The translations under genes were made by a program, and so were the position numbers. A stretch of DNA of 64,000 bases from positions 124,001 to 188,000 of the forward strand of contig CP136061.1 of assembly GCA_032622095.1 (NCBI GenBank), read 5' to 3'. The notes under the pieces are model-generated. The model did no database searches. It was not told the origin of the DNA and worked only from the letters and a program-made list of their open reading frames with translations. Below, in pieces: positions 7,301 to 46,115 of this stretch. The number at the start of each line of letters is the position of its first letter. Positions within the stretch are counted from its first letter, which is position 1. Source of the DNA: Siphonodentalium dalli. Its lineage: Eukaryota; Mollusca; Scaphopoda; Gadilida; Siphonodentaliidae.

Positions 7301-10300
7301 AAGAAATTTATTCCATGGGAGACTGTAGACCCAATGTTGATTGAAATGAAATCTTGGTCTAGTTTCAACGAGACTGCCAAATGAGATGACTGTTTTAACA
7401 AAATGTTTTATAAGAGCTATTAAAATAAATATATTAAATTTATAACATCATCTTACCACATCTTTCTGGATTTTGTAGACTAATAATTGTCCACTACTGG
7501 AGCCAGTGAAGAGAAGAGGAACAGAATCATCATGTGCCATGTGATGCAGTGTCAATGCTTTAATTCTGCAGGAGAAACAAAACCCAATTGTTATTACATA
7601 CATTTCTCTATAGTATTTTTCTAAATTACTAATGTATTTAATCCTTTCATGACTGAGCTGCCTGGTACAGCTTTACAGATCCTGTACCAGTACATTCTCT
7701 TATATATGTGAGTCTCCCATAGGGAGCCTCACATATACAAGAGAATGCACTGGCTTACAAGGTCAGGCAGATATTGTTAGGTCAATGTATTCTCTTATAT
7801 ATGCGAGGTTCTCTTTGGGAGACTCGCATATATAAGAGAATGCATTGGCACAGGGTTTTTGCTAAATTTCAGGAAGCTACAGTCATGGAAGGGTTAAATA
7901 GGATAATTACATTAGGACTGAAGTGAAAGTAGAGTGTGTAGAAATTTTGTCATTTTGTCATTGACAAAGACTCCCCGAAGTCACTATAAAGTTCCAATCA
8001 ATTAACAAAATTTTCAACTCAAAATGAACAACCAGGTTGATATTTTTTCACCGAGATATTAATCTTGGTTTCCTTATATAATTACACAATATAAAGCCAT
8101 CATAACAATTTACAAGTTTGTGATTCGGTATGATGCTTTGAAACTGTTATTACATTCAGAAACCAGATTATTCCTCAATTATTCACCTAACTATGATCCT
8201 TGATATCTCAGTTTAAAGAGAAATTGATTATAGTAGACACTGTCAAACCAAAATCTAAGCCATGGAGACCAGAATCCAAAATAAACTTTAACTGTATTTG
8301 CTGGGGTTGTAGCCTGCACACCAAACTTTATTCAATTCCGGTCACATCAACTAAAGTTATCCCTGGGAAAACAAAACAAATTCCAACAACGAGCCACAAC
8401 TCTGGTAGAACCAAAATTGAGCTTGACCTGTATTTTGTAGTATTGAACCACAGCTGTTAAGTTTCACGGATTGTCTGTGAGACTCCCGGATAGCCACAAC
8501 AATTCCCCAAATACCGATAACCCCCCAATTCTTTAACAGACTTATTGTGTAGGTTTGGGGCCGATTAGATCGGCCCCTGGCACTCAAAGGGTTAAGCATA
8601 TAAAAATGTTGTAATCATCAGCAGTTAAGATAAAAATTGTATCTCTTCATAGCTGTGTCCACCAGTGTCTGGAATCAACACAGACACATATTGAATTTCA
8701 CTTCAGAATGATATACCTGTTAGTTTCTGTATCTACAGTGAGTTTGTGTTCATCATTCACTATATTGTGTAGCTCAATATTGCCACCATCTCCACCGTAT
8801 GCAATTGTTTCATCCTGTTAAAGAAAGAACAAAAATAAAGTCTGATGGTCTATCTATATAAAAGCCAAGTGTGTGTGTGTGTGTGTCTGTCTGTAACTCT
8901 CACACAATTTTCACGCGTCTAAAAATACATCACCCTCATGTCCGATTGCACCCAAATTTGACCATGTCATGTGGCACATCATAGAATATGACATGCAAAA
9001 TTTCAGGTGAATCAGTATAAGATGACCAGAGATATAACTTGATTCCCGAGCGTTATCAAGGCAATATTTTCACCGATATAATGCGCTTGTCCGATGATGA
9101 ATGTGGTTCCAGTGGCGTCCACTATTAGTTAACCCTTTACCCAACAAACCGGCCAAAACCGGCCAAATAAAGCTTCAACAGCCTAAAATATCTTGGGTCT
9201 GTCTCAATAAAACCATACAAATATGGATATCATTGGAACCGGCTCATTGACCACACTGTGATGGTTATAGTTATGCCCTGTGCCAATGCATTCTCTTATA
9301 TATGCGAGTCGACCATAGGTCGCCTCGCATATATAAGAGAATGCATTGGCCTAAAAAAAATCTTTTTTTTAACACTTTTTACCATTTTTTCTTACATTCT
9401 TTAACAATTTTATAATTTTTAATGTGTTAAGCCAATGCATTCTCTTATATATGCGAGGCGACCTATGGTCGACTCGCATATATAAGAGAATGCATTGGCA
9501 CAGTGCCCTTCTGTTGGGTAAAGGGTTAACACCAAAGCCAAATTACAGACAAACTCCAGGCACCGTTTGCAGGCTTTCTTTATATCGTTATCAGCAGTGA
9601 AAATATTTTCCTGTTTGTCACCCTGTCATATTTGTGGGCAATCTCCTAGAATGTGATATTATAGTTCTTGTGAGGTGTAAAGAATTGTAAGATGATCACT
9701 GAGACAATTGATTTTCGTACAGTAGCCAACCTTATGTTGGGTCTAGGGCTCTTCTGAAACATACGGCAGCTTCCTCAGTTTCAACTTATATATTGTTTGA
9801 TTATCACAATTGGGTATCCTGACTATCCTCATGTGCACATACAGTTGCGTTTATGTAATCACGTGATTTAACTTGGCATTTATTACACGATCCTACCATT
9901 ATTCCATTCAATAAACCCATTCTATAAATTGTGATACTAAACGTTCGTTTAATAACAGGAAATAGTGCCAGGTGACCTTTGACATCCGGTTTACCGTCTT
10001 TTAACATTCCGTACGCTACGTCTCAAAAATACTATGACTTCCACTATTTCTCCAACAAACTATCATGACTGAAGAATTTGAAAAGTTATGTTATTAAATA
10101 TACGCCATTAAAAGCGCCAAATAGTCTTTATTTATCTGGGACTATTTCTTTACGCGGGCAAACAACGAATAGTTACGTGAAACGTCATCGCATGTCTTAT
10201 AGAAGCCGATGTTAGTTTCTCGTTCCATTTGTTGATTTAAGTATGTTTTGTCGATGTTTTGGATCATGTAATAAATAGAATCTACAACTCGTTCCCAGTT

Positions 10301-13300: not shown

Positions 13301-16300
13301 TATGTGGGTAACAATACTCTGAAGTTTCAAAAATCTACGATCAAAACTGTAGGAGGAGTTGATTACACCATGAAGGTACCCTCATACAGAAAATTATAAA
13401 AAACAAAATTCAAAGTCGAAAGGCCCATAACTCTGGGAAAAATCATTTGATCAAACTCAAATTCGAGCTTGACCTGTATTTTGATATGAACGACCCACAA
13501 AAAACAGAATTTCCAATTAAACAATCCAAACTTGAGTTATCATCCGGAAACCAAAGAAAAAACAAGTAAAATGGAATTTTCTAAGTCGAAAAGCCCATAA
13601 CTCTGAGAAAAATCATCGGATCAAACTCAAATTCGAACTTGACCTGTATTTTGATATCATCCGGAAACCAAAGAAAAAGAGGAAACATTTAATTTTCTAA
13701 GTCGAAAAACGTCCATAACTCAAGGACAATTCATCGGATCAAACTCAAATTCGAACTCAACCTGTATCTTGATATGACTGATCCACATATTTGCAATTAA
13801 TGATTCCAAACTTGAGATATCATCCGGAAACCGAAAAAGTGAGAAATTTTCTAAGTAAAAAAAAAGTTGAAAAAAGGGATTTCAGAGCACCTGTGTTCTT
13901 GGTTGAGACACCTACATACCAAGTTTCAATCAAATCAGATGATCATTACTGGAGTTATAACTCCGGACGGACGGACGGACGGGACACACGGAGCTGATTA
14001 CAATAGTCCCCCGAAAATAATTTTTTCAGGGGACAATCAATGGCTCCCGTTTAGAGGTCAACCCAGAGATCCGTACGCAGTTTGATAATGATCGGATGAT
14101 GGATGTGGCCTGTAGAGTGTGCCAAAAGATTTAGTCACGCAAAGAGTAAAATCCAAGATGGCTGCTGGCGGCCATGTTTTTAACGAATTTCAGAAATAAT
14201 CGATGGCTCCCATCTAGAGGTCACCCCGAAAATCCATATGAAGATTGGGGGCGATTAGATGAGGAATGTGGTCTGTAGGATGTGCCAAAGGATTTAGTCA
14301 TGCATTCAAGATGGCTGCCAGCGGCCATGTTTTTCATCGAAAATCGCTAAAAGTTTACAACTCCCGCTTAGAGGTGATCCTAAACATGCCTGCAAATTTT
14401 CAAAACATTTATCCAATAAAAGTGGGCTGCAGGGTGTGCCAATGGATTCAAATTTGAAATCCGAAATGACAGCTGGTGGCAATATTTTTTAACGAATTTC
14501 GGAAAAAAATTGATGGCTCCCATCTAGGGGGTCACCCCGAAGATCCATATGAAGTTTACTAGTAGTGATGATCAGATGAAGGATGCGGCCTGTAGGGTGA
14601 GCCAAAGGAAAATGTTGATGGATACCAACCCACAGCAATAGCTCAAACTTTACAAGGTAAGGTTGAGCTAAAAGGGATATCTCACTTCATGACACGTAAT
14701 GCCGATAAAAAGCAAATTTCATGCAGTTTCATTCAATTTGTTTTTCTTCAAGAGTGTGGGTATAGCTAGTAATGAAAACTTATCACTCACATCAATGAAG
14801 ACAGCTGAATGAACTCTCTGTTGGCTTTTTATTGAGTGAAGTACACTGGCTGTCTGAAACAAAAATGTTTGTCATTAACCCTTTACCCAACAAACCGGCC
14901 AAATAAAGCTTCAACAGCCTAAAATATCTTCGGTCTGTCTCAATAGAACCATACAAATATGAATATCATTGGAACCGGCTCCTTGACCACATTGTGATAG
15001 TTACAGTTATGCCCTATGGTCGACTCGCATATATAAGAGAATGCATTGGCCTAAAAAAAAATCTTTTTTTAACACTTTTTACCATTTTTTCTTACATTCT
15101 TTAACAATTTTATAATTTTTAATGTGCTAAGCCAATGCATTCTCTTATATATGCGAGGCGACCTATGGTCGACTCGCATATATAAGAGAATGCATTGGCA
15201 CAGGGCCCTTCTGTTGGGTAAAGGGTTAAGTGATGTGCAGCCCTGTTAATTACCATTGACTAAGCCGAGTCAAATGCCTAGTCAAAAAGAAATATCATTG
15301 GGTATATTGTATCCGAAGAAAATTTCAGAACATGCCAACTGAACCTGCCGATGTTTTGTGCAAAATTGAAAAAATTGCTGGAGACATTGACTTATAATGT
15401 CAAACTGTGGAAGTCTTCAGACGTGCAAAAAAAATTTGTTGAATGCCAAGCACAATTGAGGATTATCTTGATAATCAGCAATTTTAAACCATACTGAAAT
15501 AATGTCTGCCATGATGATGGACCAAATTCCAATTGTAAACTGAAGTTATATGTGTAGAGCATGCAACTATGCAGATCCTAGGCATTTTAGCATGCCCTAG
15601 GAACATGTTCTGGCCTAGGGACTTTGCTGGAGACTTCAGGTACTTAACCCTTTCAGTGCCAAGTCCGATTTTTGTATCAACCCATAATTCCTTGATCATT
15701 TTTCAAGGAAATATGGGTTGATACAGAGCTCTTTCCATCAATGTATCACATTATTATAATCAATAAATTTGAAAAATTATCAAGGAAATATGGGTTGATA
15801 CAAAAATCAGACTTGGCACTGAAAGGGTTAAAGCGTGAATATTCTTGCCCAACATACTATGTTCAGATAGGCAAAATACATCAACATTCTTATCGGTATG
15901 TGTAATCTGTAGGACAGGTTATTGGAAAATCCGTTCCAAATGTTCATTATTGATTAATTCAGCCTACATATTTATATTTTTACCTATTTGGTGTTTTCTG
16001 ATATAACACAACCAATGCACAGCCCTCTTAATTCAGATTGTTTGGCTTCGGTAATCCGCTACGGCAACCCTTTGCCGTGGCTCAGTTTGCTTCAGCAAAT
16101 GACATTGCAGATTGCCATAGCCAATTATGAAGGTTGAATGCAGTTTGAGTATTCGACAATAGCAGTTGAATTTTACATTCTTCAAGCGGGCATACTGTCT
16201 CAGAATTGAACTATCACCTTGAAATTCACAAAATGAAATCAAAAGCATACACTGTACCTTTAATAATTAACTTACTAGTAATGAACAGTGCCTGGTTGTA

Positions 16301-19300
16301 TTAACAGTGAATTGCATATACTTGGAGGAAGTATTTCAACAGAAATGAGGCCAACTATTCCAGGTAAAAATTGGATTAAGTTTCTGCATTTTAGAATGGG
16401 TTATAAATGAAACAGTTTCAAGTCATAAGGCTGACCTAGCTGATTTCCTGGTGTAAATTGATGAAGATACAGTATGAGTATTCAATATCATTCAACTATA
16501 TAAACATGGTCAAGAGAGATATTTCTGATGAAGAAGTAGTTCTGAGTCATACAGGAATTAACTTACCTCGACATCATATGCATCAATCTTCATGTTATTT
16601 ATGATGAAGTAGTTCCGAGTCATACATGAATTAACTTACCTCGACATCATATGCATCAATCTTCATGTTATTTATGATGAAGTAGTTCCGAGTCATACAT
16701 GAATTAACTTACCTCGACATCATATGCATCAATCTTCATGTTATTTATGATGAAGTAGTTCCGAGTCATACAGGAATTAACTTACCTCGACATCATATGA
16801 ATCAATCTTCATGTTATTTATGATGAAGTAGTTCCGAGTCATACATGAATTAACTTACCTCGACATCATATGCATCAATCTTCATGTTATTTATGATGAA
16901 GTAGTTCCGAGTCATACATGAATTAACTTACCTCGACATCATATGCATCAATCTTCATGTTATTTATGATGAAGTAGTTCCGAGTCATACCGGAATTAAC
17001 TTACCTCGACATCATATACATCAATCTTCATGTTATTTATGATGATGTAGTTCCGAGTCATACATGAATTAACTTACCTCGACATCATATGCATCAATCT
17101 TCATGTTATTTATGATGATGTAGTTCCGAGTCATACATGAATTAACTTACCTCGACATCATATGCATCAATCTTCATGTTATTTATAATGATGTAGTTCC
17201 GAGTCATACATGAATTAACTTACCTCGACATCATATGCATCAATCTTCATGTTATTTATGACGATGTAGTTCCGAGTCATACATGAATTAACTTACCTCG
17301 ACATCATATACATCAATCTTCATGTTATTTATGATGATGTAGTTCCGAGTCATACATGAATTAACTTACCTCGACATCATATGCATCAATCTTCATGTTA
17401 TTTATGATGATGTAGTTCCGAGTCATACATGAATTAACTTACCTCAACATCATATACATCAATCTTCATGTTATTTATGATGATGTAGTTCCGAGTCATA
17501 CATGAATTAATTTACCTCGACATCATATACATCAATCTTCATGTTATTTATGATGATGTAGTTCCGAGTCATACATGAATTAACTTACCTCGACATCATA
17601 TGCATCAATCTTCATGTTATTTATAATGATGTAGTTCCGAGTCATACATGAATTAACTTACCTCGACATCATATACATCAATCTTCATGTTATTTATGAT
17701 GATGTAGTTCCGAGTCATACATGAATTAATTTACCTCGACATCATATACATCAATCTTCATGTTATTTATGATGATGTAGTTCCGAGTCATACATGAATT
17801 AACTTACCTCGACATCATATACATCAATCTTCATGTTATTTATGATGATGTAGTTCCGAGTCATACATGAATTAACTTACCTCGACATCATATACATCAA
17901 TCTTCATGTTATTTATGATGATGTAGTTCCGAGTCATACATGAATTAACTTACCTCGACATCATATACATCAATCTTCATGTTATCTATGATGATGTAGT
18001 TCCGAGTCATACATGAATTAACTTACCTCGACATCATATGCATCAATCTTCATGTTATTTATGATGATGTAGTTCCGAGACATACATGAATTAACTTACC
18101 TCGACATCATATGCATCAATCTTCATGTTATTTATAATGATGTAGTTCCGAGTCATACATGAATTAACTTACCTCGACATCATATACATCAATCTTCATG
18201 TTATTTATGATGATGTAGTTCCGAGTCATACACGAATTAACTTACCTCGACATCATATGCATCAATCTTCATGTTATTTATGATGATGTAGTTCCGAGTC
18301 ATACATGAATTAACTTACCTCGACATCATATGCATCAATCTTCATGTTATTTATGATGAAGTAGTTCCGAGTCATACAGGAATTAACTTACCTCGACATC
18401 ATATGCATCAATCTTCATGTTATTTATGATGAAGTAGTTCCGAGTCATACAGGAATTAACTTACCTCGACATCATATGCATCAATCTTCATGTTATTTAT
18501 GATGAAGTAGTTCCGAGTCATACATGAATTAACTTACCTCGACATCATATGCATCAATCTTCATGTTATTTATGATGAAGTAGTTCCGAGTCATACATGA
18601 ATTAACTTACCTCGACATCATATACATCAATCTTCATGTTATTTATGATGATGTAGTTCCGAGTCATACATGAATTAACTTACCTCGACATCATATGCAT
18701 CAATCTTCATGTTATTTATGATGATGTAGTTCCGAGACATACATGAATTAACTTACCTCGACATCATATGCATCAATCTTCATGTTATTTATGATGATGT
18801 AGTTCCGAGTCATACATGAATTAACTTACCTCGACATCATATACATCAATCTTCATGTTATTTATGATGATGTAGTTCCGAGTCATACATGAATTAACTT
18901 ACCTCGACATCATATACATCAATCTTCATGTTATTTATGATGATGTAGTTCCGAGACATACATGAATTAACTTACCTCGACATCATATGCATCAATCTTC
19001 ATGTTATTTATGATGATGTAGTTCCGAGTCATACATGAATTAACTTACCTCGACATCATATACATCAATCTTCATGTTATTTATGATGATGTAGTTCCGA
19101 GTCGTACATGAATTAACTTACCTCGACATCATATACATCAATCTTCATGTTATTTATGATGATGTAGTTCCGAGTCATACATGAATTAACTTACCTCGAC
19201 ATCATATGCATCAATCTTCATGTTATTTATGATGATGTAGTTCCGAGTCATACATGAATTAACTTACCTCGACATCATATGCATCAATCTTCATGTTATT

Positions 19301-22300
19301 ATTTATGATGAAGTAGTTCCGAGTCATACATGAATTAACTTACCTCGACATCATATACATCAATCTTCATGTTATTTATGATGATGTAGTTCCGAGTCAT
19401 ACATGAATTAACTTACCTCGACATCATATACATCAATCTTCATGTTATTTATGATGATGTAGTTCCGAGTCATACATGAATTAACTTACCTCGACATCAT
19501 ATACATCAATCTTCATGTTATTTATGATGATGTAGTTCCGAGTCATACATGAATTAACTTACCTCGACATCATATACATCAATCTTCATGTTATTTATGA
19601 TGATGTAGTTCCGAGTCATACATGAATTAACTTACCTCGACATCATATGCATCAATCTTCATGTTATTATTTATGATGAAGTAGTTCCGAGTCATACATG
19701 AATTAACTTACCTTGACATCATATACATCAATCTTCATGTTATTTATGATGATGTAGTTCCGAGTCATACAGGAATTAACTTACCTCGACATCATATGCA
19801 TCAATCTTCATGTTATTTATGATGATGTAGTTCCGAGTCATACATGAATTAACTTACCTCGACATCATATTAGAGGTGCCACGATTATTGATTTTGATAA
19901 TCGATAATCGGTCGTCAATAATCGACTATAATCGATTAATCGTACCTAATATTAATAACATCAGTGGAAGTATACCGTAATATGGCCTATTGCCTGGGTG
20001 CTCGTTAATTCAATAACTGCACTGTCGCTGGTCATTTGAGACATTGGCTGATGTAATTTTTACGTTAATAAAGTGCATCATAAACCACTGTTAATGACTA
20101 ATGAGCACAATGTATTGAATACCAGCACAGTTCTCAGTGATGTTATATGGTTATAATATTTGTGAGTTCATTAGAACGAACGTAGCGATTAATTTAAGTT
20201 TTAGGAATAGCCAAATACATAAACAAACGATACAAAAGTAGGATTGAACAATGGACCGCCGGTTGTTCCTACGGTACATAAAGGAATCAAATGTTATGGA
20301 AACAATAAGTTTCATCAAACTTCCAGAGCGTGGTTGACAATCACAAACGTGTGCCCCACCTGCAAATTGCATGACTCAGAACAATTTTAAGTATTTGATA
20401 AGTCTGTTTCATTCAGCATTCACCACACGATATGCAATAGCCTTTACTAGTAACTTCTAAGTATACATTTCTACTTATAATATCCAAACAAAGTTCACTT
20501 GCAATGCAATTGGGGAGAACATCACTGATTAAAATGCCATATATACATGTACATGTATATTGTTCCCTGGTTTTAGAGAGAATGTCAATCAACTTCCCAT
20601 TGGTCCAATCAGATTCAAGGGCGAGTGCATTCAGTTCATTGAACACGGTGACAGTCGGCACATTTCAAAGACATATTGCCACCTTTCAAGTATATTAAAA
20701 TATACAACGATGTCACAATGTGTTCAAATCTGCAGTGCGGCCAATTTGTAGAATATGCAACGACCCGACGAGAAACCATGTCGCATCGTCAAATGAATTG
20801 CCAACTGTTTGCAACATATATCAGTAGTACTCATGTTATTGGAATCTCTTTGGTACGCGATCAAAGGATGTTAACACCTCGGTTGTAGATAGAACTGTGT
20901 AAAATAAACACGGTATTCAATAATACCCGGCATCTTCTGACATCCGATATAAATAACACAGATTAATCGACGATGGAAATGGTAATCGATTATCGGCTTT
21001 ATCAACGGTTCATCGATTATACGATTAATCGTGGCACCCCTACATCATATGCATCAATCTTCATGTTATTTATGATGATGTAGTTCCGAGACATACATGA
21101 ATTAACTTACCTCGACATCATATGCATCAATCTTCATGTTATTTATGATGATGTAGTTCCGAGTCATACATGAATTAACTTACCTCGACATCATATACAT
21201 CAATCTTCATGTTATTTATGATGATGTAGTTCCGAGACATACATGAATTAACTTACCTCGACATCATATACATCAATCTTCATGTTATTTATGATGATGT
21301 AGTTCCGAGACATACATGAATTAACTTACCTCGACATCATATACATCAATCTTCATGTTATTTATGATGATGTAGTTCCGAGACATACATGAATTAACTT
21401 ACCTCGACATCATATACAGCAATCTTCATGTTATTTATGATGATGTAGTTCCGAGACATACATGAATTAACTTACCTCGACATCATATACATCAATCTTC
21501 ATGTTATTTATGATGATGTAGTTCCGAGTCATACATGAATTAACTTACCTCGACATCATATACATCAATCTTCATGTTATTTATGATGATGTAGTTCCGA
21601 GACATACATGAATTAACTTACCTCGACATCATATACATCAATCTTCATGTTATTTATGATGATGTAGTTCCGAGACATACATGAATTAACTTACCTCGAC
21701 ATCATATACATCAATCTTCATGTTATTTATGATGATGTAGTTCCGAGACATACATGAATTAACTTACCTCGACATCATATACATCAATCTTCATGTTATT
21801 TATGATGATGTAGTTCCGAGACATACAGGAATTAACTTACCTCGACATCATATACATCAATCTTCATGTTATTTATGATGATGTAGTTCCGAGACATACA
21901 TGAATTAACTTACCTCGACATCATATGCATCAATCTTCATGTTATTTATGATGATGTAGTTCCGAGACATACATGAATTAACTTACCTCGACATCATATA
22001 CATCAATCTTCATGTTATTTATGATGATGTAGTTCCGAGACATACATGAATTAACTTACCTCGACATCATATACATCAATCTTCATGTTATTTATGATGA
22101 TGTAGTTCCGAGACATACATGAATTAACTTACCTCGACATCATATACATCAATCTTCATGTTATTTATGATGATGTAGTTCCGAGTCATACATGAATTAA
22201 CTTACCTCGACATCATATACATCAATCTTCATGTTATTTATGATGATGTAGTTCCGAGTCATACAGGAATTAACTTACCTCGACATCATATACATCAATC

Positions 22301-25300
22301 TTCATGTTATTTATGATGATGTAGTTCCGAGTCATACATGAATTAACTTACCTCGACATCATATACATCAATCTTCATGTTATTTATGATGATGTAGTTC
22401 CGAGTCATACATGAATTAACTTACCTCGACATCATATGCATCAATCTTCATGTTATTTATGATGATGTAGTTCCGAGTCGTACATGAATTAACTTACCTC
22501 GACATCATATGCATCAATCTTCATGTTATTTATGATGATGTAGTTCCGAGTCATACATGAATTAACTTACCTCGACATCATATACATCAATCTTCATGTT
22601 ATTTATGATGATGTAGTTCCGAGTCATACATGAATTAACTTACCTCGACATCATATACATCAATCTTCATGTTATTTATGATGATGTAGTTCCGAGTCAT
22701 ACATGAATTAACTTACCTCGACATCATATACATCAATCTTCATGTTATTTATGATGATGTAGTTCCGAGTCATACATGAATTAACTTACCTCGACATCAT
22801 ATGCATCAATCTTCATGTTATTTATGATGATGTAGTTCCGAGTCATACATGAATTAACTTACCTCGACATCATATGCATCAATCTTCATGTTATTTATGA
22901 TGATGTAGTTCCGAGTCATACATGAATTAACTTACCTCGACATCATATACATCAATCTTCATGTTATTTATGATGATGTAGTTCCGAGTCATACAGGAAT
23001 TAACTTACCTCGACATCATATACATCAATCTTCATGTTATTTATAATGATGTAGTTCCGAGTCATACATGAATTAACTTACCTCGACATCATATACATCA
23101 ATCTTCATGTTATTTATGATGATGTAGTTCCGAGTCATACATGAATTAACTTACCTCGACATCATATGCATCAATCTTCATGTTATTTATGATGATGTAG
23201 TTCCGAGTCATACATGAATTAACTTACCTCGACATCATATACATCAATCTTCATGTTATTTATGATGATGTAGTTCCGAGTCATACATGAATTAACTTAC
23301 CTCGACATCATATGCATCAATCTTCATGTTATTTATGATGATGTAGTTCCGAGTCATACATGAATTAACTTACCTCGACATCATATGCATCAATCTTCAT
23401 GTTATTTATGATGATGTAGTTCCGAGTCATACATGAATTAACTTACCTCGACATCATATGCATCAATCTTCATGTTATTTATGATGATGTAGTTCCGAGT
23501 CATACATGAATTAACTTACCTCGACATCATATACATCAATCTTCATGTTATTTATGATGATGTAGTTCCGAGTCATACATGAATTAACTTACCTCGACAT
23601 CATATACATCAATCTTCATGTTATTTATGATGATGTAGTTCCGAGTCATACATGAATTAACTTACCTCGACATCATATACATCAATCTTCATGTTATTTA
23701 TGATGATGTAGTTCCGAGTCATACATGAATTAACTTACCTCGACATCATATACATCAATCTTCATGTTATTTATGAAGATGTAGTTCCGAGTCATACATG
23801 AATTAACTTACCTCGACATCATATACATCAATCTTCATGTTATTTATGATGATGTAGTTCCGAGTCATACATGAATTAACTTACCTCGACATCATATACA
23901 TCAATCTTCATGTTATTTATGATGATGTAGTTCCGAGTCATACATGAATTAACTTACCTCGACATCATATACATCAATCTTCATGTTATTTATGATGATG
24001 TAGTTCCGAGTCATACATGAATTAACTTACCTCGACATCATATACATCAATCTTCATGTTATTTATGAAGATGTAGTTCCGAGTCATACATGAATTAACT
24101 TACCTTGACATCATATACATCAATCTTCATGTTATTTATGATGATGTAGTTCCGAGTCATACATGAATTAACTTACCTCGACATCATATACATCAATCTT
24201 CATGTTATTTATGATGATGTAGTTCTGAGTCATACATGAATTAACTTACCTCGACATCATATGCATCAATCTTCATGTTATTTATGATGATGTAGTTCCG
24301 AGTCATACATGAATTAACTTACCTCGACATCATATGCATCAATCTTCATGTTATTTATGATGATGTAGTGATTCCCAGATGGCGACCACAGAATTATCTC
24401 TGCATCTGTAAGATAACACAGACATACATGATACTGACTGTTCTTAATGTTGGTTTACATCGATGATCTGTTCCATAACTCTACTATAGCAGAGTTTACA
24501 CCCAGATTCATCATTGAATTGGTTTTATCCTAAACATGAACACAGAAAGCTATATTTATTGGAAAGAGTGATATCTTGCAGTCACAATGACTGATTTACA
24601 TTTTATGATAAAATACATATATATTTAGTCCAAGTTACCGTTGATGTAAGCCAACTATTGAAACATGTAGTGATAATACTGGTTGATGTCAAGTATGGTT
24701 GCCTTACTCTTCTCTCATCAGACTTCAGGAGTAAGGTACCGCTCATCTAAAATCACCAAAATGACGGTAATAACATGTCACAATTGAGAAAATAACCCAG
24801 TTTATCCATAGACAAGACAGTCAATGACTGTGGGGTCGCTCACCAGACTGCAAAGACTGATAAGACTGGGACTCTGGAGACCACAACAGTCAGAACGTTT
24901 CATAATCACTTTAAAAGAAGTAGAACTAAACAGGATATGTGGCTAGAGAGACTTCACATATGTAGATTGGTGAAAATCCACCTTGAAATTACCAACTGTA
25001 CACTACTGATCACCCACCTCCTCCAGATCAACAAGACCCCTCCCGACTGGGCTCCAGACTCCCAAGTCTTGGGTTGGAATTTCACAACCGACACCTCAAA
25101 CTTTCTCAATTGTTGGAAATTTCCAATCTCACAAGCGCCTTTTTATAATATCATTTAGACATGTTTGAAGCCCAATTATCCATGGACCCAAAACACCATA
25201 CATGTATGTCAGATTAATCAGTCAGGTGGTTCCAAGGTAGATGTTTTAATGAATTTGGTATTTCAATGATTTTATTAGACACAAAAGTGTTAACTCCTCA

Positions 25301-28300
25301 TAACCCCACCATTTCTTGACAGGTTGACCACATTTTAACAAATCTGAATCTGTCACTAAAGGATCCTCCATACTATATGTAAGCTAAATAGTCCAACCCC
25401 TCTTGAGAAGACATTTTAAGAATAACTATAGAGACATATAGTTATGTCCCTGGTCCCACCCTATTTAACCTGGTGACCCCATCTGAATATATTTGAATCC
25501 CAGACACCAAAGAACCCTTCATACTAATACTAAATATCAGTAAAATAGACCTGATGGTCCTTGTGAAGGAAGCATATTAAGATGGAAACTGTCCTTCGCT
25601 TGGCCCCTATTTGACCAGGTGACTCCATTTAAAAAAATCTAAATTGCAGTCAAACAAGAACATTCCATGCTAAATAAGCCAACTAGTTCTTGCAAACATA
25701 TTTTAAGAATTACTATGTGGTGAAATAGTTATGTCTCTGGCTCTGCCCTTATTTGACTTTGTGATCCCATTTTCACAAATCTGTCACCCACGGTAATTTC
25801 ATACCAAATATAAGCAAAATAGGCCATTTGATTCTTGCATAGAAGACATATCATGAATTACTATGGAGAGAAAGAGTAATGTAGCTGGCCTTGCACCTAC
25901 TTGACCAGGTGACCCTAATTAAACAAATCTGAATCACAATCACCAAAGAAGCCTCAATATTAAATATGAGCTAAATAGAGCTGGTGGTTCTTTCAAAGAA
26001 CACTTTTGCCAAATATGTTCTAGTGAAGTGGAAGTGGGTGTGTTAAATGTCCTGTTGAAAGATTTGAACAATACATGATAGATTGTTGTTGTAATTGGGA
26101 ATTAATGACTTCTAGCAGATCTCCAGGGAATGTTTATAAAAATGTCAGATTTCACTTGACATGTGTAGGCATATCCCGCATACAGTTAGAGCCAAAGTAA
26201 ATGTTTCTTATTAATGATTCACTGTCAAGAATTTGAGTAAATTTTATTTTTGGGACCAGGGTGGTAGAAGCAGTAAACTTTTTTTTGGAGTTATGTCCCT
26301 GGCCACGCCCACATTTGACCCAGTGACCTCATTTGAACAAATCTGAACCCCAGTCACCCAAGAATCCTTCATACCAAATATGAACCTATTTGGCCTGCTG
26401 GTATTTGAGAAGATGTTTAAAAGAATTACTATGGAGGGAAAGAGTTATGGCCCAGGCTTCGCAACTATTTGACCCAGTGACCTCATTTGAACAATTCTGA
26501 AGTGAGTCACCTAGGGAACATCCACACCAAATATGAACCCATTTGGCCTGCTGGTATTTGAGAAGAAGATGTTTAAAAGAATTACTATGGAGGGAAAGAG
26601 TTATGGCCCTGGCTTCGCAACTATTTGACCAAGTAACCTCATTTGAACAAATCTGAATGTGAGTCACCTAGGGAACATCCACACCAAATCTGAACCCATT
26701 TGGTCTTATGGTTCCAGAGGAGATGTTCAAAGAATTGTTGACGGACGGACGTATGGACGGCTCGACGGATGGACGGACGAGGAGTGATGACTATAGTTCC
26801 ACCGGAGACTTTGTCTCAGGTGAGCTAAAAACAAATATCTGTTCTGGATTCCACAAGATTTTCCAACTGTGAAAGTAGTAAATTATAATGCGAATAGGTC
26901 GGTAGACCTCATGTCCGCCTCTAAGTGTCGGCTTGATACGACCGTTGTTTGCGCATAAAAACCTGTCTTTAGTGCTAGTAAACATACATACCAAACTTAT
27001 TTCATTCAGTACACATTTACTAAAGTTATCATCCGGAAACCTCAAATTGGCAAAAATTCTAAGTAAAAAAGGGACATAACTCTGGTGAAAATTGGCGGGC
27101 AGAACCCGAATTCGAACTTGACCTGTGTTTTGCTGGGAGAAAGACACATACCAACTTTGGTTCAGATCAAATAATCCAAACTGGAGTTATCGGTCGGAAA
27201 CCAAAAATGTTAACAGACGGTCAAATTATAAGTTGAAAAAGGGCCGTAACTCATGTAAAAATAATTGGACGGAACCCATATTCGAACTTGTCCTGTATCT
27301 TTAGCTGGGAAACACACATACCAACTTTGGTTCAGATCAAATAATCCAAACTGGAGTTATTGGTCGGAAACCAAAAATGTTAACAGACGGTCAAATTCTA
27401 AGTCGAAAAGGGGGCATAACTCTGGTGAAAATTGGCGGACGGAACCAGAATTCTAACTTGACCTGTCTTTTCTGCTAGTAAACCCACATACCAATTTAAT
27501 TTAATTTGGTTCACTCTAACTAAAGTTATCATCCGGAAACCTCGGACGCACGGACGGACGGACGCACAGGCTGATTATAATAGTCGTCCGAACCCGTTGT
27601 GTCGGCGGACAAAAATATATTTTATCACAATGTTTACATAATTTCAAAAGAAAACAAACTCATTTAACATCGCAACTTTGTAACAGTTCGGGTCATCTCC
27701 GAGCGTAAAGAAACCCAGATCAAACAGAAGTTATTCCTAATTACATGGCATATTCTGTGCGTAATTGAACATGAATGTTAGATTATAATACATCATTATG
27801 ACCGTAAGATATTACTCTTTCCGATAAACATAGCATTTTGTATTGATTTCAATGATAAAGTTGATTAAAATTGATGAAAAATCACAAACTGGATCTGGGC
27901 TTAAAACCATTTCAGTGCCAAGTCCGATTTTTGTATCAACCCATATTTTCTTGATCATTTTTCAAATTTATTTTAGAGCTCTTTCCATCAAAGTATCACA
28001 TTATTATAATCAATAAATTTGAAAAATGATCAAGGAAATATGGGTTGATACAAAAATCGGACTTGGCACTGAAAGGGTTAAAAAGTCTACTATAGAAGAG
28101 TAAGGCAACCATACTTTGTCCTATACCAGTATCATGCCTAACGATTTCACCGGAAGGTTTATGTCAATGGAAACTTGGATTATTGCTCATTCAGACACGC
28201 AAATTAGTTTGTGGTACAAAAAAAAACAGTTTGTGGTACAAACCTGCTTTAAGATTTGTGACGTACGCTGATCGACCTGTCACTAAATTCCATGTGTGGA

Positions 28301-31300
28301 GTTTTCGATCTGTACCAACTGACATGGCTAACTTCCCACTTGGATGAACTGCCACACAACGAACAGCATTTCTGAAAATAGTTTCCAAAAAGGAAGAATA
28401 AAATTGGTTGACCATTTAATTTAATTTAGTTAATGACACTTGACCGGAAAACAATCTGGTCAAAAACTTGAATAAAATTTCTACAAAAATTAAATCTTGA
28501 TTTTTAGACCGACCCTGCAGTATCACAAAAACTGAACATATTGTAAGAATAACTGTCTAAATAACACATAAGCAAGAACAAATTATATAGATAATTTAAA
28601 ACACAGATGGGTTTGAAGGAAACGGCTGTTTTTTTGTTCTTAGAAGAAAAAGACTATTTGTTTGTGTTATCAGACTTTTCTACATTGAAATTCTTGAAAT
28701 AACATCACAGAACAACTAGGATACATTTCTGCAGCTTTTTATTGACTTTATCCAAGGATTTTTATGTGGGAAAATTTTTCATGCAGACAACATTCTCACT
28801 CTCCGCTGTTCGGTGTCATGAACAGAAATAATTAAGATTCTTGGGAACAAGAACATGCATTTTCTTTAAACTCGCGACACGTAAAGGGTTGTTGCATTGG
28901 AATAACATCTGGATAGAGTTAATTTTGTTGTTATCTAGCGCGGATCTGTGTCTTTGACTGCAGCAGTTCGAGGCCTTGATGAGTAATCAATAATCAGGAG
29001 ATAAATCCAAATCGGAGATGTGTGATGATCTAATTTTAAGGCATCTCATGAAGATACTCAATGCATGTGCTCGCACAAGGATCCAACTTTATAAGTCGAA
29101 CTGTCAAAATTGTGTTAAATAAAATGTAATCAACAGTATATAGTTCTCAAACGAGCCTATGGAAAGATTGTTTCCGCAAATTTTTTTCTAAATTCGACAT
29201 CGACTGTATTTTGAATCAGCATAGCTATACATGGGGGACCATATGGACAACCACTATTTGATTATGACCCGATAGAAATATTAGACATTCTTTGGGATCA
29301 AGCTCTTGGATCAAGTTTGAAAGGCTGATGACTACCCTAGATTGCTGGAACTTGCTGTTCAATAACTAAGGAATCTCAATTTCTCAACACAATGTTTGCA
29401 GTTCTCAATGATTGTCCCAGAATTCTACGTCGAAGTGTCAAAACTATATTTTTAAATCACATGTAACCAATATATTAAAATTTATATAGGTATCATAGTA
29501 TCGTACGTCTGTATCAAACGAGCTGTCGAACCTATATGGAAAGACTATTTCTGTAAATTTGTAATTAATTCAACATCAACTGTGTTTCAAATTCTACAAA
29601 GGACATTCGGCTTCATGACTGACAATTCACATTAGTATTAATGTGTCAAATTTGTGTGTCCTGCCAACTATATTACTTATTCTTCAACCTGTGAGAGCAG
29701 GGTGCTCCAAAGACAAAGGAATTTATATACAACAACAACGATGGCCATGTTTTTTAACAAAATATGAACAAATTTAATTGCTCCCATCTAGTGGTCACCC
29801 AGAAGTATTTAGTGACAATCAGATGAGGGATATGACCTGTGGGGTAGTCTCACCTGACGAATAATAGTGCATGCATGATTATTTAATTTCAGTCATAAAT
29901 ACAACCCTGCACTATTATTAGGCAGTGAGACATATAGTGAAATTGCCTGCACTATTATTAATTTCAGCCTCAAATACATGTACAGCCATGTACTATTATT
30001 CGGTCTGCACTATTATTCGGCAGGTGAGAGTATGGAGAAGGATTTAGACATGCAAAGACGCCAAAGAGTAAAATCCAGGATGGCTGCCAGCGGCCATGTT
30101 TTTCATAAAAACATTCAAATTTAATCGCTTGAATTTCAACAAATTTTGGAAAAAATTTATGGCTCCCATCTAGAGCGAATATCTGTATGAAGTTTGGTGA
30201 CAATCCGATGAGAGATGTGACCTGTAGGGTGTGCTTAATGGAATATTTGAAGGACAGCCAACCTATGGCAATAGCTCAAAATTTACTTTGTCAAAGTGAG
30301 CTAAAAACAGGGCCCTGATTTTTCTTCAGCATGGAACAATAAAGAACATTCCTTGTTAGTCTATCCAATTTAAACTAGAGGTGCCACGATTATAGATTTT
30401 GACAATCGATAATCGGGAGTCAATAATCGACTATAATCAATTAATCGTACCTAATACTATCAGTGGAAGTATTCTGTAATATGGCCTATTGGCTGGGTGC
30501 TGGTTAACTGCACTGTCGCTGGTTGTTTGAGGCATCGGCTGATGTCTTTTTTACGTTAATAAAGTGATTCATAAACCACTGTCAATGACCAATGAACACA
30601 ATGTATTCAATACCAGCACAATTCTCGGCGATGTTAAGGTTATAATATTTGTGAGTAAATTAGAACGAACGTAGCTATTAATTTCAGTGTTATGAATAGC
30701 CAAACATACAAACAATATAAAAGTAGGAATGCACGAAGGATGGCCGACGGTTCCTAAAAACTATTAAGTTTCGTCAAGCTTCGAGAGCGTGGATAACAAT
30801 CACAAATGTGTGCCCCCACCTGCAAATTGCAGGACTCCCGTGGCACCCCTAATTTAAAATGCTGGAAAATTTCTATGACTGTGGATTAATATTTCATGTA
30901 TTTTACCCTTTCATAATGGGAGCTGCGCTGGCACAACATTCAAGACCCTGTGCCAATGCATTCTCTTATATATGCGAGTCGACCATAGGTCACCTCGCAT
31001 ATATAAGAGAATGCATTGGCTTACAAATTTTTTATCATTTTTTATCAATTTTTCTTACATTCCTTAACAATTTTTTATCATTTTTTCTTTCATTCTTTAA
31101 CAATTTTTATCATGTTTTATAATTTTTTGTTACATTCTGTAACTAATTTTATCATTTTTCTTATATTCTTTAACAATTCTATCATTTTTTATATCATTTT
31201 TTCTCACATTCTTTAACAATTTTATCATAATTTTTTCTTACATTCTTTAAAGATATATTATGGACTTTTTGAAACTGATAAGTTAGCTTTGAGGTGCTAT

Positions 31301-34300
31301 GTCAACTGGAGGAATGTAGCATTTTAGTAACATTGCCGAAAATTTCAAGCAAATTGACCGTACCACTCCATAGAAATCATCGTCTGAACAACCCTCAATT
31401 GTAAATATTTATTTCTCAATTCGGGATGCAACTCTCTGCGATAAACTAATGAAAACGATTTCACCTTCGAGAATCACTGCAATTAATTAATAAATAAGAA
31501 TGACGATGTGTGTTGCCAATTTGTATATAATATTTGTAAAAATAACTAAATTTGAGCAAGAGTATTCTCCATTTCTATTTTATCACCATACTTTAGTGTT
31601 TCACATCACTTTAACAATTTTTATCATTATTTCTTACATTCTTTAACAATTTCTTTCATTTTTTCTTACATTTTTAACAGTTATAAAAAATAATATAAAA
31701 ATTGTAAGGCCAATGCATTCTTCTATATATGCGAGGCTACCTATGGTCGACTCGCATATATAAGAGAATGCACTGGCACAGGATTTTCACAAAATTTCAG
31801 GAAGCTCCCATCACGAAAGGGTTAATATCGACTTAATTTATCGGTTCTTCCAAAATTACGTAAACATAACTTGAAGGTTCAAATGATAAATTCAAGTAAT
31901 ACAAACTTGTGTCCTTTGAATGATCTCAGGCATTCCCATTTATTGGATTTCCAAATGCACACAGTTCCGTCATCACTACAGCTGAACATATGAGATCCTT
32001 CATAGAATGCGAGCCAGTTAACTGTGCCTGTAACATTACAATTCAATTCAAAATTTATTGCCAATATCTGGATTAAAACCAGGAATGTGACATAAATGTG
32101 GACACACCACAACATAAGTGAACAGGTTTAGAAATAACAATGTATCAGAAACAAAGAACATAAAAAAAAGAAACTTATTAAATGCTAATATAGACGGTCT
32201 AGAAATTTTTAGTTTCTTATTTCAAACATCAAATGGTCCATATGGGGTATATTAGATAATAAATGGTGATAAATTATATGTTTTTATTGCTACATGTGTA
32301 GGCAAGGAAATTAGGAAGAAAACAGGTAGTCCAAATCAATCAATCAACTCAATTAATTTTATTTTTGAACAAAGCAAAACCATTCGGCTCTTAGTTCCCA
32401 TATTACATAATGGAAATTGACATTTTAAACATCACAATCAGTACTTTTTTGTATAGTTCACAAGTCAATGTAAAGTCCATTTATTGCTCCACTATTTCCA
32501 TATTATGTATTATTTTGTTAGATATTTTTCTCTTTGTTTTCTTAGTTCTATCCTAAGTTTTTTCGAGTCATTAAGTTCTTTTCTTGAGCATTCACTGTTG
32601 AAATAAACTTAGTTATGTCCATCGATTTTAGTTTCTCCACTGTTAAACTGAGTTGCCTTTTTTATCATTATATCCTGTAACATAGTTCAGTGAGCTAAAT
32701 GAATTGACACCCCCCCTAATTAATTCAATAGTTTTTTCTCACTGTGCTAACACATCATTGATAATAAAAAATACAGCTACTTTTTCCCTTCTGTTCAGTT
32801 TCTTTATCCCCTTATTTGTAGAATATAAAATGCATAATTGAGGTGACTAATGGGTGAACTTCAACTGGGGAACTTCAACCTGATCCTTGGTCTGCCATAG
32901 CAGTTGAGGCTGCAGCAGAATGAAGTTCCCAGAGGATGATATTGGTGACGCTAGCCCCCAGTGTGGGCTAATGTTACTAAATTCACACTCTGGAGACCTC
33001 ATTCTGCAAATGACAGACACACTATATGCAGTCTTGATTACTATTAATGCATATCAAGTTCATTATAAGAATTAAAGCACTTCTCTGGGGGTATACATAC
33101 CTGTATAACAAATAAACCTGCTCAATAAAGTTGTTTCAATAAATTTAGTATCAAAATAGGCACCCTACATTTTGTCATCCTTTTATATAAATTACATGTA
33201 TTGAATAACGTAGTCCAAGTCTTCTTGTACTAAAACCAGCTAAGATATTGGTATGGCGATTTGCTGGTGTTTAGTCCAAGCCCGCCTGCATAGGCTTCTT
33301 ATAACACGACTTTAGCGTTAGTGACCCGCTCAAATAAAACCACAATTATATGAAATAAAATATCACAATTGCAACAATAAACGGATATTTTCCGCAGAAG
33401 ACTTGCTATTTGATCTGAAACCCACATCAGTTGTGATTTGAACGCGGTAATTTAATGTGAAAAGAGACATTTAACGCAATGTTTACATAATTTTAAAAGT
33501 ATGCGAACTCAGTTGAAAATATTCCGTAGATTTTCGATCAACCACGCACGATGAATTCTCCATTGTAATCGTAATTGTACGTGTCAATAAATAAATAAAT
33601 GCATAGATTAAGTAAATATTGAAGATATAAATGTAATACATTAAATTAATTGCGGGAATTACAACCATCTCACAGTTTAAAACAGTGTAAACACAACGAG
33701 CATTAGAATAATATGGGGGCCGCCATTTTGTTTGTATAGCCAGACCAAACTCCAGACTGTGCCGGAGTTCTTCCGTACGACTTCGGCTTTCGGTTAAAAC
33801 GTAAACAAAATATACAGCGATGTCACAAAATGCGATGTCGGTGACAATCAACCGGAATATTCTATGCGTAATTTAACATGAAAGTTAGATTATTATACAC
33901 CATTATGACCATAAGATGTCACTCTTTCCGATGTATATAGCATCATGTATTGATTTTTTAGGTAAATCAAGTAAAATACACCACAAATTCCCGCCACAGA
34001 TCCTGGGCGCAAGTCGTGTTATAAGAAGCCTATGCAGGCGGGCTTGGACTAAACACCAGCAAATCGCCATACCAATATCTTAGCTGGTTTTAGTACAAGA
34101 CTTGGACTATGAATAACGTTGGCGGATCATTCCCATTTATCAGTGATTAATTCAAGACGAATGAAGGATTTTAAAGATATGGGTGGCGTTGGTGGTGGGT
34201 ATGCTGTTAAAATATTCACCTCCTTCAAAAACCGCCATAAACAGAAAGAATAGTAAAATATAGACAAATCTTGTTCTTATACCAATCAGAAATATGGCAT

Positions 34301-43711: not shown

Positions 43712-44469
43712 ATAGATAGGCCTACCTATATCACACTGTGGCCAGTGGGGCACACTGGAGGCGATGTGGTGTAGGTAGTCGCGAAAATAGGTGAACATTT
43801 TCAAACACGTTTAATGGTTATGTTCAATATATTTATGATATATCTATGTATGAGAGTTATCAATGTACACTATTAATAATACCTCCCCATCCTTCACCAA
43901 TCTGTAACCAAGTAAAGTGTGTTCGTATGTGCCAACTACAACCTCCATATTTGAGTGGCCATGTGCTTTTATGTGACGTCGTCAATTTGTGTGTAGAATA
44001 AATAATCAGCACGTGGCGGTGAAATAAAAAAAAAGTGTTAAAATAGAAGGTAGAACATTCAAGGATTTTGTCGAGTTAGCGATATGATCAAACTAAACTT
44101 AGTGTTGTGAATATGCTTTCAGATATTGCAACGCTCACCAGCCTACAATGCTTGTTCACTCAGAAATACTATATCCGGATTACAAGAATCATCCGGGCGG
44201 CTATGCGGTTTTTAGTCAGACAGATTCCGGAGTCCAATCCGTGTTTTAGTCAGACTCAAAATACGAAACTTTCACATCCGAAAAGAGCTGGCCTCCCATA
44301 AACTAGAAATTTCAAATTTTTCAAAGAATAGTTTTAAAACAGGATAAGACACATACCGACAGAATGAGTTCTGCACAGGTTGGCACATTAAGATTGTCAT
44401 AACTTAACCATCATAAATGACATAATATGAAAAAACCAGATTGGGATCTGGGACGTTTTTTACTAAATA
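43712..44469. other. Unassigned AT-rich sequence
   Basis: No supported gene or element. Confidence 0.5.
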
Positions 44470-45293: not shown

Positions 45294-45420
45294 AAAGGTA
45301 CTCAATCCGATAAGACGCTGCTAAATTACTCTTTCTTTGGCTTCGGTGGGGAAAAAATATTTGATTAGTGTCGAACCCACCCATCAAAGCTCAGAGTAAT
45401 TAGATACAGTCGTTCAGGTA
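45294..45420. mobile_element. Partial copy of the AGGTACTCAATCCG element
   Basis: TTAAAGGTACTCAATCCGAT, CTTTGGCTTCGGTGGGG, ATATTTGATTAGTGTCGAAC and AAAGCTCAGAGTAATTAGAT match the left arm of 36401-36876. No right arm follows. Confidence 0.7.
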
Positions 45421-46015
45421 GTAACGGGTCACAGGCAGTAATGGGTCAGTTGCTGTTTATCGTCGTGGCAAAAGTCACAGATACACTTGATCTCCCAAAA
45501 TCCTTTTGATTCTTGAGAATGAATATGTGTTGGAGATCATGTGCAATTTGTGGCGAGTTCTGACGGTAATTTCCGATTTAATTCAATTTTTCTGACGGAC
45601 AGTGGAAACGCATCGGAGGAAAGTAGGTCAACAAAATATGTCAAGTTGCAGATCGGCTGCTGCCAATAAAAAACAGAATAAAGTACACCCAAACTAAGCA
45701 CTGTAAAATATTAACAAATTATTTATTTTTCAACTCCCAGACCCCCACAAAAGTTAAATTTGTCTTATTGTGTAAACATTTAATTTGTTTCGACCTACTT
45801 CCGTTGTCAATAGCGGGTCACATGCGGGTCGCACGTGCTATCACGGAATGGATAAAAACATGTCAATTGAATTCTAATGATTAGCATACATTGGAAATAA
45901 TAAAACATAGTAACATTTCATGCCTTCATTGGCAATTTAAGACATAATATAGGTTGAAATTGTTCTCATAGTTTAATTTTCCAACCAGAATTGAATGAAG
46001 AGTGAATGTTTTTTT
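45421..46015. other. Unassigned sequence before the gap
   Basis: Nothing recognised. Confidence 0.5.
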
Positions 46016-46115
46016 NNNNNNNNNNNNNNNNNNNNNNNNNNNNNNNNNNNNNNNNNNNNNNNNNNNNNNNNNNNNNNNNNNNNNNNNNNNNNNNNNNNNN
46101 NNNNNNNNNNNNNNN
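46016..46115. other. Assembly gap (100 N)
   Basis: A run of 100 undetermined bases, the usual placeholder for a scaffold gap of unknown length. Confidence 0.99.

Follow-up and report, generated by a model that had tools for sequence, protein, structure and literature searches.

A 73-bp unit spanning the end of exon 5 and its 5' splice site, present 91 times in tandem in a PAK1IP1-like gene of the scaphopod Siphonodentalium dalli

Background

Minisatellite-like tandem duplications of an exon-intron boundary, known as mirages, have been reported from amphioxus in Adh3, BflGb6, BflGb9, TnC and PGBD5 (PMC3087553, PMC3902484), the second of these reports adding PGBD5 and naming Adh and TnC; both report that regular splicing is left undisturbed. 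In human CBS, the 31-bp variable number tandem repeat (VNTR) c.1444_1467+7(16_21) comprises 16-21 units and is polymorphic in copy number (PMC2630376), while human genes within segmental duplications are reported to contain variable internal tandem repeats at exon-intron boundaries, with units of 30 bp and 4 copies on average (PMC2812944). Here we describe an array of this kind in intron 5 of a PAK1IP1-like gene of the mollusc Siphonodentalium dalli. The gene lies in a stretch of 64,000 nucleotides (hereafter the window; C1:124001-188000, where C1 is contig CP136061.1 of assembly GCA_032622095.1, which comprises 2.23 Gb in nine contigs). The array is real and not an obvious artefact, and it is of a known kind with an extreme copy number. 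The open-licence literature searched yielded neither a mirage from a mollusc nor any mirage of about 90 units; new here are the copy number, the presence of an unexpanded twin and the recurrence at other exons.

Results

The array in intron 5

The repeat unit (73 bp) combines the final 46 bp of exon 5 with the initial 27 bp of intron 5, arranged head to tail in a tandem of minisatellite-size units that spans a real exon-intron boundary, this boundary being set by the reading frame, the exon 6 acceptor and homologues. Tandem Repeats Finder gives a period of 73 at 16528-19870 (45.7 copies) and at 21042-24369 (45.6 copies), with 97-98% matches, and unit 1 coincides with the real end of exon 5. 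A motif search allowing at most three mismatches placed 91 junctions between 24323 and 16567, all on the minus strand. The original prediction, that the gene's own exon end and 5' splice site had been amplified in tandem inside its intron, giving 46 + 45 = 91 donors (i.e. 5' splice sites), is thereby borne out by the repeat finder, the junction search and the gene model alike. It had also stated that the donor is kept in every copy read, which holds for the GT (91/91, so that every unit has a 5' splice site, as in CBS) and not for the exact GAG/GTAAGT (the slash marking the boundary), which is found in 87 of the 91, with AAG/GTAAGT and GAG/GTAAAT in two each. The prediction mentioned neither the element that separates the two halves of the array nor the second gene copy on C3 (both described below).

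Successive donors are 73 bp apart throughout, save for two distances of 76 bp and one of 1253 bp. The latter equals 73 + 1180, i.e. without the element that splits the array (Table 1) the flanking donors would be 73 bp apart, from which it follows that the element was inserted in unit 46 after the array had formed. Its terminal inverted repeats are equal at 17 of 20 positions, and it is called hAT-like on account of the hallmarks of the hAT superfamily. The units are homogenised, neighbouring ones being more alike than distant ones, and 28 distinct 73-base strings occur when the interrupted unit is counted. A higher-order repeat was considered and rejected, as the differences between units climb slowly with distance, without a marked period; likewise, no two separate identical runs of at least five consecutive units were found within the array.

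Tandem arrays are often misassembled and the copy number could be off, but it is very improbable that the array is much shorter in the animal or absent from it. An artefact is difficult to reconcile with 28 distinct units, two length variants of 3 bp and, within the array, an inserted element flanked by a target site duplication of its own; the only gap in the window lies outside the array.

The gene and its unexpanded copy

The array resides in a nine-exon gene on the minus strand of the window, with a predicted protein of 404 aa. The model was made from genomic sequence alone; exon borders were set by hand from reading frame, splice signals and tblastn with the human protein as query. All eight acceptors end in CAG, and exon 5 of the model was aligned with 24 homologues. 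The protein is closest to molluscan PAK1IP1-like proteins (43-50% identity; the named ones are from Pecten, Gigantopelta, Argopecten, Patella and Haliotis), and the name PAK1IP1 rests on these best named matches. The peptide of exons 5-6 had zero matches in the PDB, where the whole protein matched only generic WD40 proteins among the best 60 of 567 matches, which does not identify the gene. Further tandem repeats of 118-170 bp are present in introns of the same gene (12205-12807, 13538-13775, 26288-26703 and 27054-27494) and have relatives in the C3 region described below.

A probe of 100 bases across the junction has one other site in the assembly, C3:206598022-206598121, where the junction occurs once; the copy number is thus 1 unit on C3 and 91 on C1. 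With gaps counted, window and C3 are 97.1% identical (12 blocks of at least 300 bp, 28.3 kb, including one 401-bp block off the diagonal), and with substitutions only they diverge by 1.09% (293 of 26,998 positions in 10 blocks of at least 700 bp). The idea that introns differ by 3% between the copies was rejected, since that figure had included gaps. In both copies the gene is complete, all nine exons and their splice sites being intact, and the coding sequences differ in nine codons. Nine coding substitutions, where 13.2 would be expected at the rate of the aligned segment (P = 0.15), do not show purifying selection on the window copy. On C3, ACTACATCATCAT in exon 5 and ACTACTTCTTCAT in intron 5 are equal at 11 of 13 positions; the distance between them is exactly 73 bp, and they mark the limits of the unit.

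The original prediction had placed the array in a conserved essential gene. By homology the gene is indeed PAK1IP1-like, but the animal need not depend on the window copy, because a second intact and unexpanded copy (allele or duplicate) exists.

One of the codon differences lies within the repeated part of exon 5. Variation per position was scored over 88 units (three of the 91 being dropped for a distance to the previous donor other than 73), and base -14 is C in 35 of these and T in 53. The window exon has C, giving Ala184, whereas C3 has T, giving Val, and in each of the 24 homologues aligned this residue is V, I or L. The variation is thus common to the array and the exon itself, and either conversion between the two or the spread of an exon mutation into the array would account for it. 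As the coding end of the exon forms part of the array, mutations arising in the array could reach the protein by conversion.

Predicted splicing outcome

In the gene model all donors share the acceptor of exon 6. Splicing from donor 1 is predicted to give the 404-aa protein, whereas each of donors 2 to 91 is predicted to give 190 aa and a premature stop, because the intron read in frame is GTA AGT TAA. Exon 5 would measure 83, 156, 229, 302, 375 nt and so on up to 7839 nt, depending on the donor. The original prediction was that the RNA would present the spliceosome with about 90 strong 5' splice sites in competition; under exon definition an exon of usual size would result from the first few donors only (83, 156, 229, 302 nt). 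From position -46 to +27 the donors hardly differ in sequence, and the choice between them can therefore rest only on position, for which distance to the exon 5 3' splice site, order of transcription and distance to exon 6 could serve as cues. We infer that donor 1 is used for most functional transcripts.

Internal micro-exons were considered and rejected. The unit contains three AG dinucleotides (AAG, GAG and AAG) and no CAG or TAG acceptor; the pyrimidine content before these AGs is 0.40-0.45, compared to 0.45-0.80 at the real acceptors, the lowest of which (exon 3) overlaps. Judging by these signals, the unit holds no usable acceptor of the kind needed for intron gain or a new exon.

With 91 strong U1 sites predicted per transcript, and a premature stop predicted for every donor except the first, the array could be imagined to be functional, as a sponge for the U1 small nuclear ribonucleoprotein, as a block to premature polyadenylation or as a poison switch lowering PAK1IP1 output. 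This is hardly likely, since the donor letters show no excess conservation within the array: two of nine donor positions are variable, versus 13 of 64 in the rest of the unit, and variants occupy 4 of 792 cells in the donor versus 87 of 5632 elsewhere, the latter being mostly a few common variants. There is no sign of donors being kept as such, which fits neutrality, and on this ground the U1 sponge and the poison switch were rejected. Furthermore, the C3 copy does without an array, and arrays of many unit lengths and sequences occur at unrelated exons (see below). A function of the array is not supported; its value is that of a natural experiment on splice-site choice.

Exon-end arrays elsewhere in the genome

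A scan of the genome for three occurrences of AGGTAAGT, separated by 50-80 bases each, yielded 2733 matches, compared to 1257 for the reversed pattern, and the pattern based on CAGGTAAGT gave 1484 compared to 490; these counts are dominated by large arrays and are not numbers of loci. Among the matches listed (approximately the first hundred for each pattern, on C1 and the start of C2), 12 clusters were distinguished, i.e. the PAK1IP1 array and 11 others. Eight of the 11 were examined, the remaining three being satellite-like in appearance, and at the start of six of these eight there is an open frame which runs exactly up to the first donor and the end of which is repeated (Table 1; acceptors chosen by eye). 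In each of the six, continuing beyond donor 1 in the presumed coding frame leads to a stop 1 to 39 nt further on; a second frame is also open in L037 and L038, where the stop comes after 74 and 1 nt, respectively.

Two of the six exon peptides could be identified, with homology over the whole peptide: that of L035 as USP47 (PF19718, E = 1.6e-12, above the cut-off) and that of L038 as PPP1R12A/MYPT1 (PDB 2kjy, E = 1e-5). The zf-met match of L031 and the DegQ match of L036 are weak and below the cut-off, the latter probably due to chance. For the L037 peptide no Pfam or PDB match was found, and for that of L032 there was no Pfam match at E up to 1 and no PDB match. The L032 exon may resemble DOCK.

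In the other two clusters examined, L033 and L034, which have similar 33-44-bp repeats, no exon edge was found. Similar repeats of 32-44 bp with a donor-like AGGTAAGT in many units were seen at L033, L034, C1:257632637-257639710 and C2:19745375-19746188, and about 80 kb of a 26-bp tandem repeat, with CAGGTAAGT in many units, appears in the scan listing at C1:231979724-232058789.

By our own estimate, true donors probably make up a large share of all such motifs, and the scan therefore does not show exon ends to be preferred targets; it does show that exon-end arrays arise and persist at exon ends. As to the wider claim, that exon-end minisatellites are present genome-wide (in PAK1IP1, USP47, MYPT1 and more), that they are tolerated, and that the spliceosome chooses among 3 to 91 donors by position, we consider the chances to be evenly balanced.

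Allele or duplicate

The contig that bears the array occupies C1:100708 to C1:170015 between two gaps of 100 Ns, and in the C3 stretches compared it matches C3 over C1:101091 to 169406. It includes a tandem duplication of ~13.8 kb, in which C1:101091-114620 and the sequence from C1:114903 onwards both start at C3:206625067. Since the first 383 bases of the contig equal C1:114520-114902 at 100%, the contig begins within a further copy of this duplication, while its last 609 bases (window 45407-46015) had no match in the loci compared. The 13.8-kb duplication adjoins the gene and is absent from the C3 copy within the C3 stretch examined. Before the left gap, C1 matches C2 instead (C1:72001-73500 at 100%, C1:80001-82000 at 98% and C1:100001-100494 at 97.8%). 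Overall, the start of C1 (C1:72001-170015) is a series of contigs parted by 100 Ns that match C2:187.37-187.40 Mb and C3:206.58-206.63 Mb. At C1:40001-42000 there is a dispersed repeat, which is found many times over on several chromosomes at 97-100% identity; it is itself tandemly organised, with a period of 1746 bp (C1:18932, 20678, 22424), and looks like a very recent mobile element.

Because the array-bearing contig is bounded by gaps and matches C3 almost throughout, alleles are more likely than duplicates. We thus lean towards the window copy being the other allele of the C3 gene, on a 69-kb haplotig misscaffolded near the start of C1. In line with this, the C3 homology extends nearly from end to end (609 bases lacking a match) and the substitution divergence of 1.09% can be set beside a heterozygosity of almost 1% to 4.12% reported for chitons (PMC12005716). 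There is also no telomere at the start of C1, since its first 3 kb contain TTAGGG once and CCCTAA never. What speaks against alleles is a structure far from that of C3 (with the 13.8-kb duplication, several insertions or deletions of kilobase size and the array), and the expectation that scaffolding would place a haplotig next to its allele.

That the window copy is instead a recent interchromosomal duplicate, leaving the species with two PAK1IP1 genes, is a lesser though still serious possibility: the assembly does place it on C1, where the neighbouring pieces match C2 at 97.8-100%, like a patchwork of duplications. The switch from C2-like to C3-like sequence sits, however, at a scaffold gap and not within a contig, which also led us to reject a mosaic of C2- and C3-derived duplications within one contig. 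Moreover, C1:90001-91500 (L026) had no match in the C2 stretch predicted by colinearity, and L024, another of the five C1 pieces compared, had weak repeat matches only to C2. A row of small contigs resembling other chromosomes would fit misplaced haplotigs somewhat better than duplications.

On either reading, one assembly holds versions with 1 and with 91 units. Were the copies alleles, the sequenced animal would be heterozygous, with a single donor on one chromosome copy and 91 on the other, and the array would be polymorphic within the species.

Table 1. Coordinates of the gene, the array and its surroundings (window positions) and of exon-end arrays elsewhere in the genome
Feature	Coordinates	Strand	Remarks
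Exon 9 with stop codon	3968..4348	-	gene model
Exon 8	7457..7565	-	gene model
Exon 7	8717..8814	-	gene model
Exon 6	14791..14853	-	TTTCAG acceptor; in-frame join from exon 5
Intron-proximal array half	16540..19870	-	46 junctions, donors 19858 to 16567; last one merges into unique intron
hAT-like nonautonomous element, 1172 bp	19871..21042		inside unit 46; 8-bp target site duplication ATATGATG
Exon-proximal array half	21043..24369	-	45 complete junctions, donors 24323 to 21111, plus 5' part of unit 46
Exon 5	24323..24405	-	TTACAG before; donor GAG/GTAAGT after 24323; last 46 bp are the exonic part of repeat unit 1
Exon 4	28244..28371	-	frame, homology, splice signals
Exon 3	31907..32027	-	frame, homology, splice signals
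Exon 2	35971..36136	-	frame, homology, splice signals
Exon 1	43883..43948	-	start codon at 43948; reading frame and homology
Segment colinear with C3	1..45406	-	opposite orientation to C3:206579255-206613304 (unexpanded copy)
100-N scaffold gap	46016..46115		right end of array-bearing contig; left gap at C1:100608-100707, outside the window
L031	C1:22878001-22883000		46 exact donors, units 64 and 78 bp; weak acceptor AAG
L032	C1:17160501-17163500		78 bp, 5.6 copies
L035	C1:65904901-65907400		41 bp, 11 copies; USP47
L036	C1:123798601-123801100		43 bp, 7.6 copies
L037	C1:250967401-250969900		68 bp, 3.6 copies
L038	C1:267847001-267849500		9 exact donors, units 34 and 46 bp; PPP1R12A/MYPT1

Outside the gene, open frames on the minus strand at window 49719-48663 look like the reverse transcriptase of a non-LTR (long terminal repeat) retrotransposon.

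Discussion

It is quite probable that the array is a minisatellite of the mirage type, which was seeded by a short repeat, grew by unequal exchange and is tolerated via donor 1. The imperfect direct repeat ACTACATCATCAT/ACTACTTCTTCAT would have allowed a first duplication of the junction through slippage or unequal exchange, after which unequal crossing-over and conversion may have enlarged and homogenised the array to 91 copies on this chromosome copy; the hAT-like element would have arrived later. The array itself would be selectively neutral or mildly harmful, with the spliceosome mostly on donor 1, while transcripts spliced from later donors, with a stop after 190 codons, would be degraded. 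Donor 1 may be favoured because it gives the smallest exon (83 nt), is made first and position alone can decide, and the expansion was presumably tolerated because the first donor is intact and an unexpanded copy is present. Two alleles of one gene are compatible with this explanation.

A number of observations weigh against it. In 17 of 300 shuffles of the region a repeat of 11/13 across the junction is reached as well, so that the seed repeat is mildly unusual, and plausible rather than proven. As for donor 1, a tendency towards smaller exons is reported for the choice of 5' splice sites, but in the same source the downstream donor is preferred under intron definition, and the footnotes of its Table 1 give a preference for the upstream donor of only 29%, 42% and 44% within size classes (PMC9225289); with such opposing results, this literature does not settle the choice of donor. 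Finally, the coding differences between the two copies (6 nonsynonymous, 3 synonymous) are close to what is expected with no constraint on the window copy.

This last ratio, together with Ala184, is what could be expected if the window copy were non-functional (a null allele or an early pseudogene) and the array had grown because nothing depends on it. Nevertheless, we regard this as rather unlikely. Nine exons and their splice sites are all intact, nine differences are too few to decide, and at residue 83 it is C3, rather than the window copy, that departs from most homologues. A minisatellite tolerated through its first donor remains the preferred explanation.

It has long been asked how the spliceosome selects one of several equal 5' splice sites, and the rules of intron definition and exon definition predict opposite choices. 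A row of 91 near-identical donors, with an unexpanded control and shorter series elsewhere in the genome, amounts to a natural experiment on the effect of donor position. Mirages are now seen beyond the amphioxus and human cases found, and are possibly a raw stage of intron evolution.

The original prediction considered it unusual that a functional junction is repeated so many times; the kind has precedents in the amphioxus mirages and the human CBS VNTR, and further genes in the same genome carry arrays of this type. The repeats from recently duplicated human genes, which reportedly can change splicing and give rise to introns (PMC2812944), are likewise minisatellites located where exon and intron meet, but the PAK1IP1 array is far longer, and gene duplication is here only one of two readings. 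The unit of the CBS repeat, with 24 bp of exon end and 7 bp of intron, likewise contains a 5' splice site, albeit as 16-21 units of 31 bp (PMC2630376), compared to 91 transposon-split units of 73 bp (46 + 27) in PAK1IP1. The amphioxus mirages, as reported (PMC3087553, PMC3902484), share with it a tandem that spans the boundary, splice signals in many units and homogenisation. There, haplotypes differ in copy number, as do the C1 and C3 copies of PAK1IP1 (alleles or paralogues). One BflGb6 haplotype has 6 copies and the other 3, and for BflGb9 a duplicate is given, versus 91 and 1 in the mollusc. Besides these numbers, what sets the present case apart from the amphioxus mirages is its molluscan host and an unexpanded copy that shows the likely starting state.

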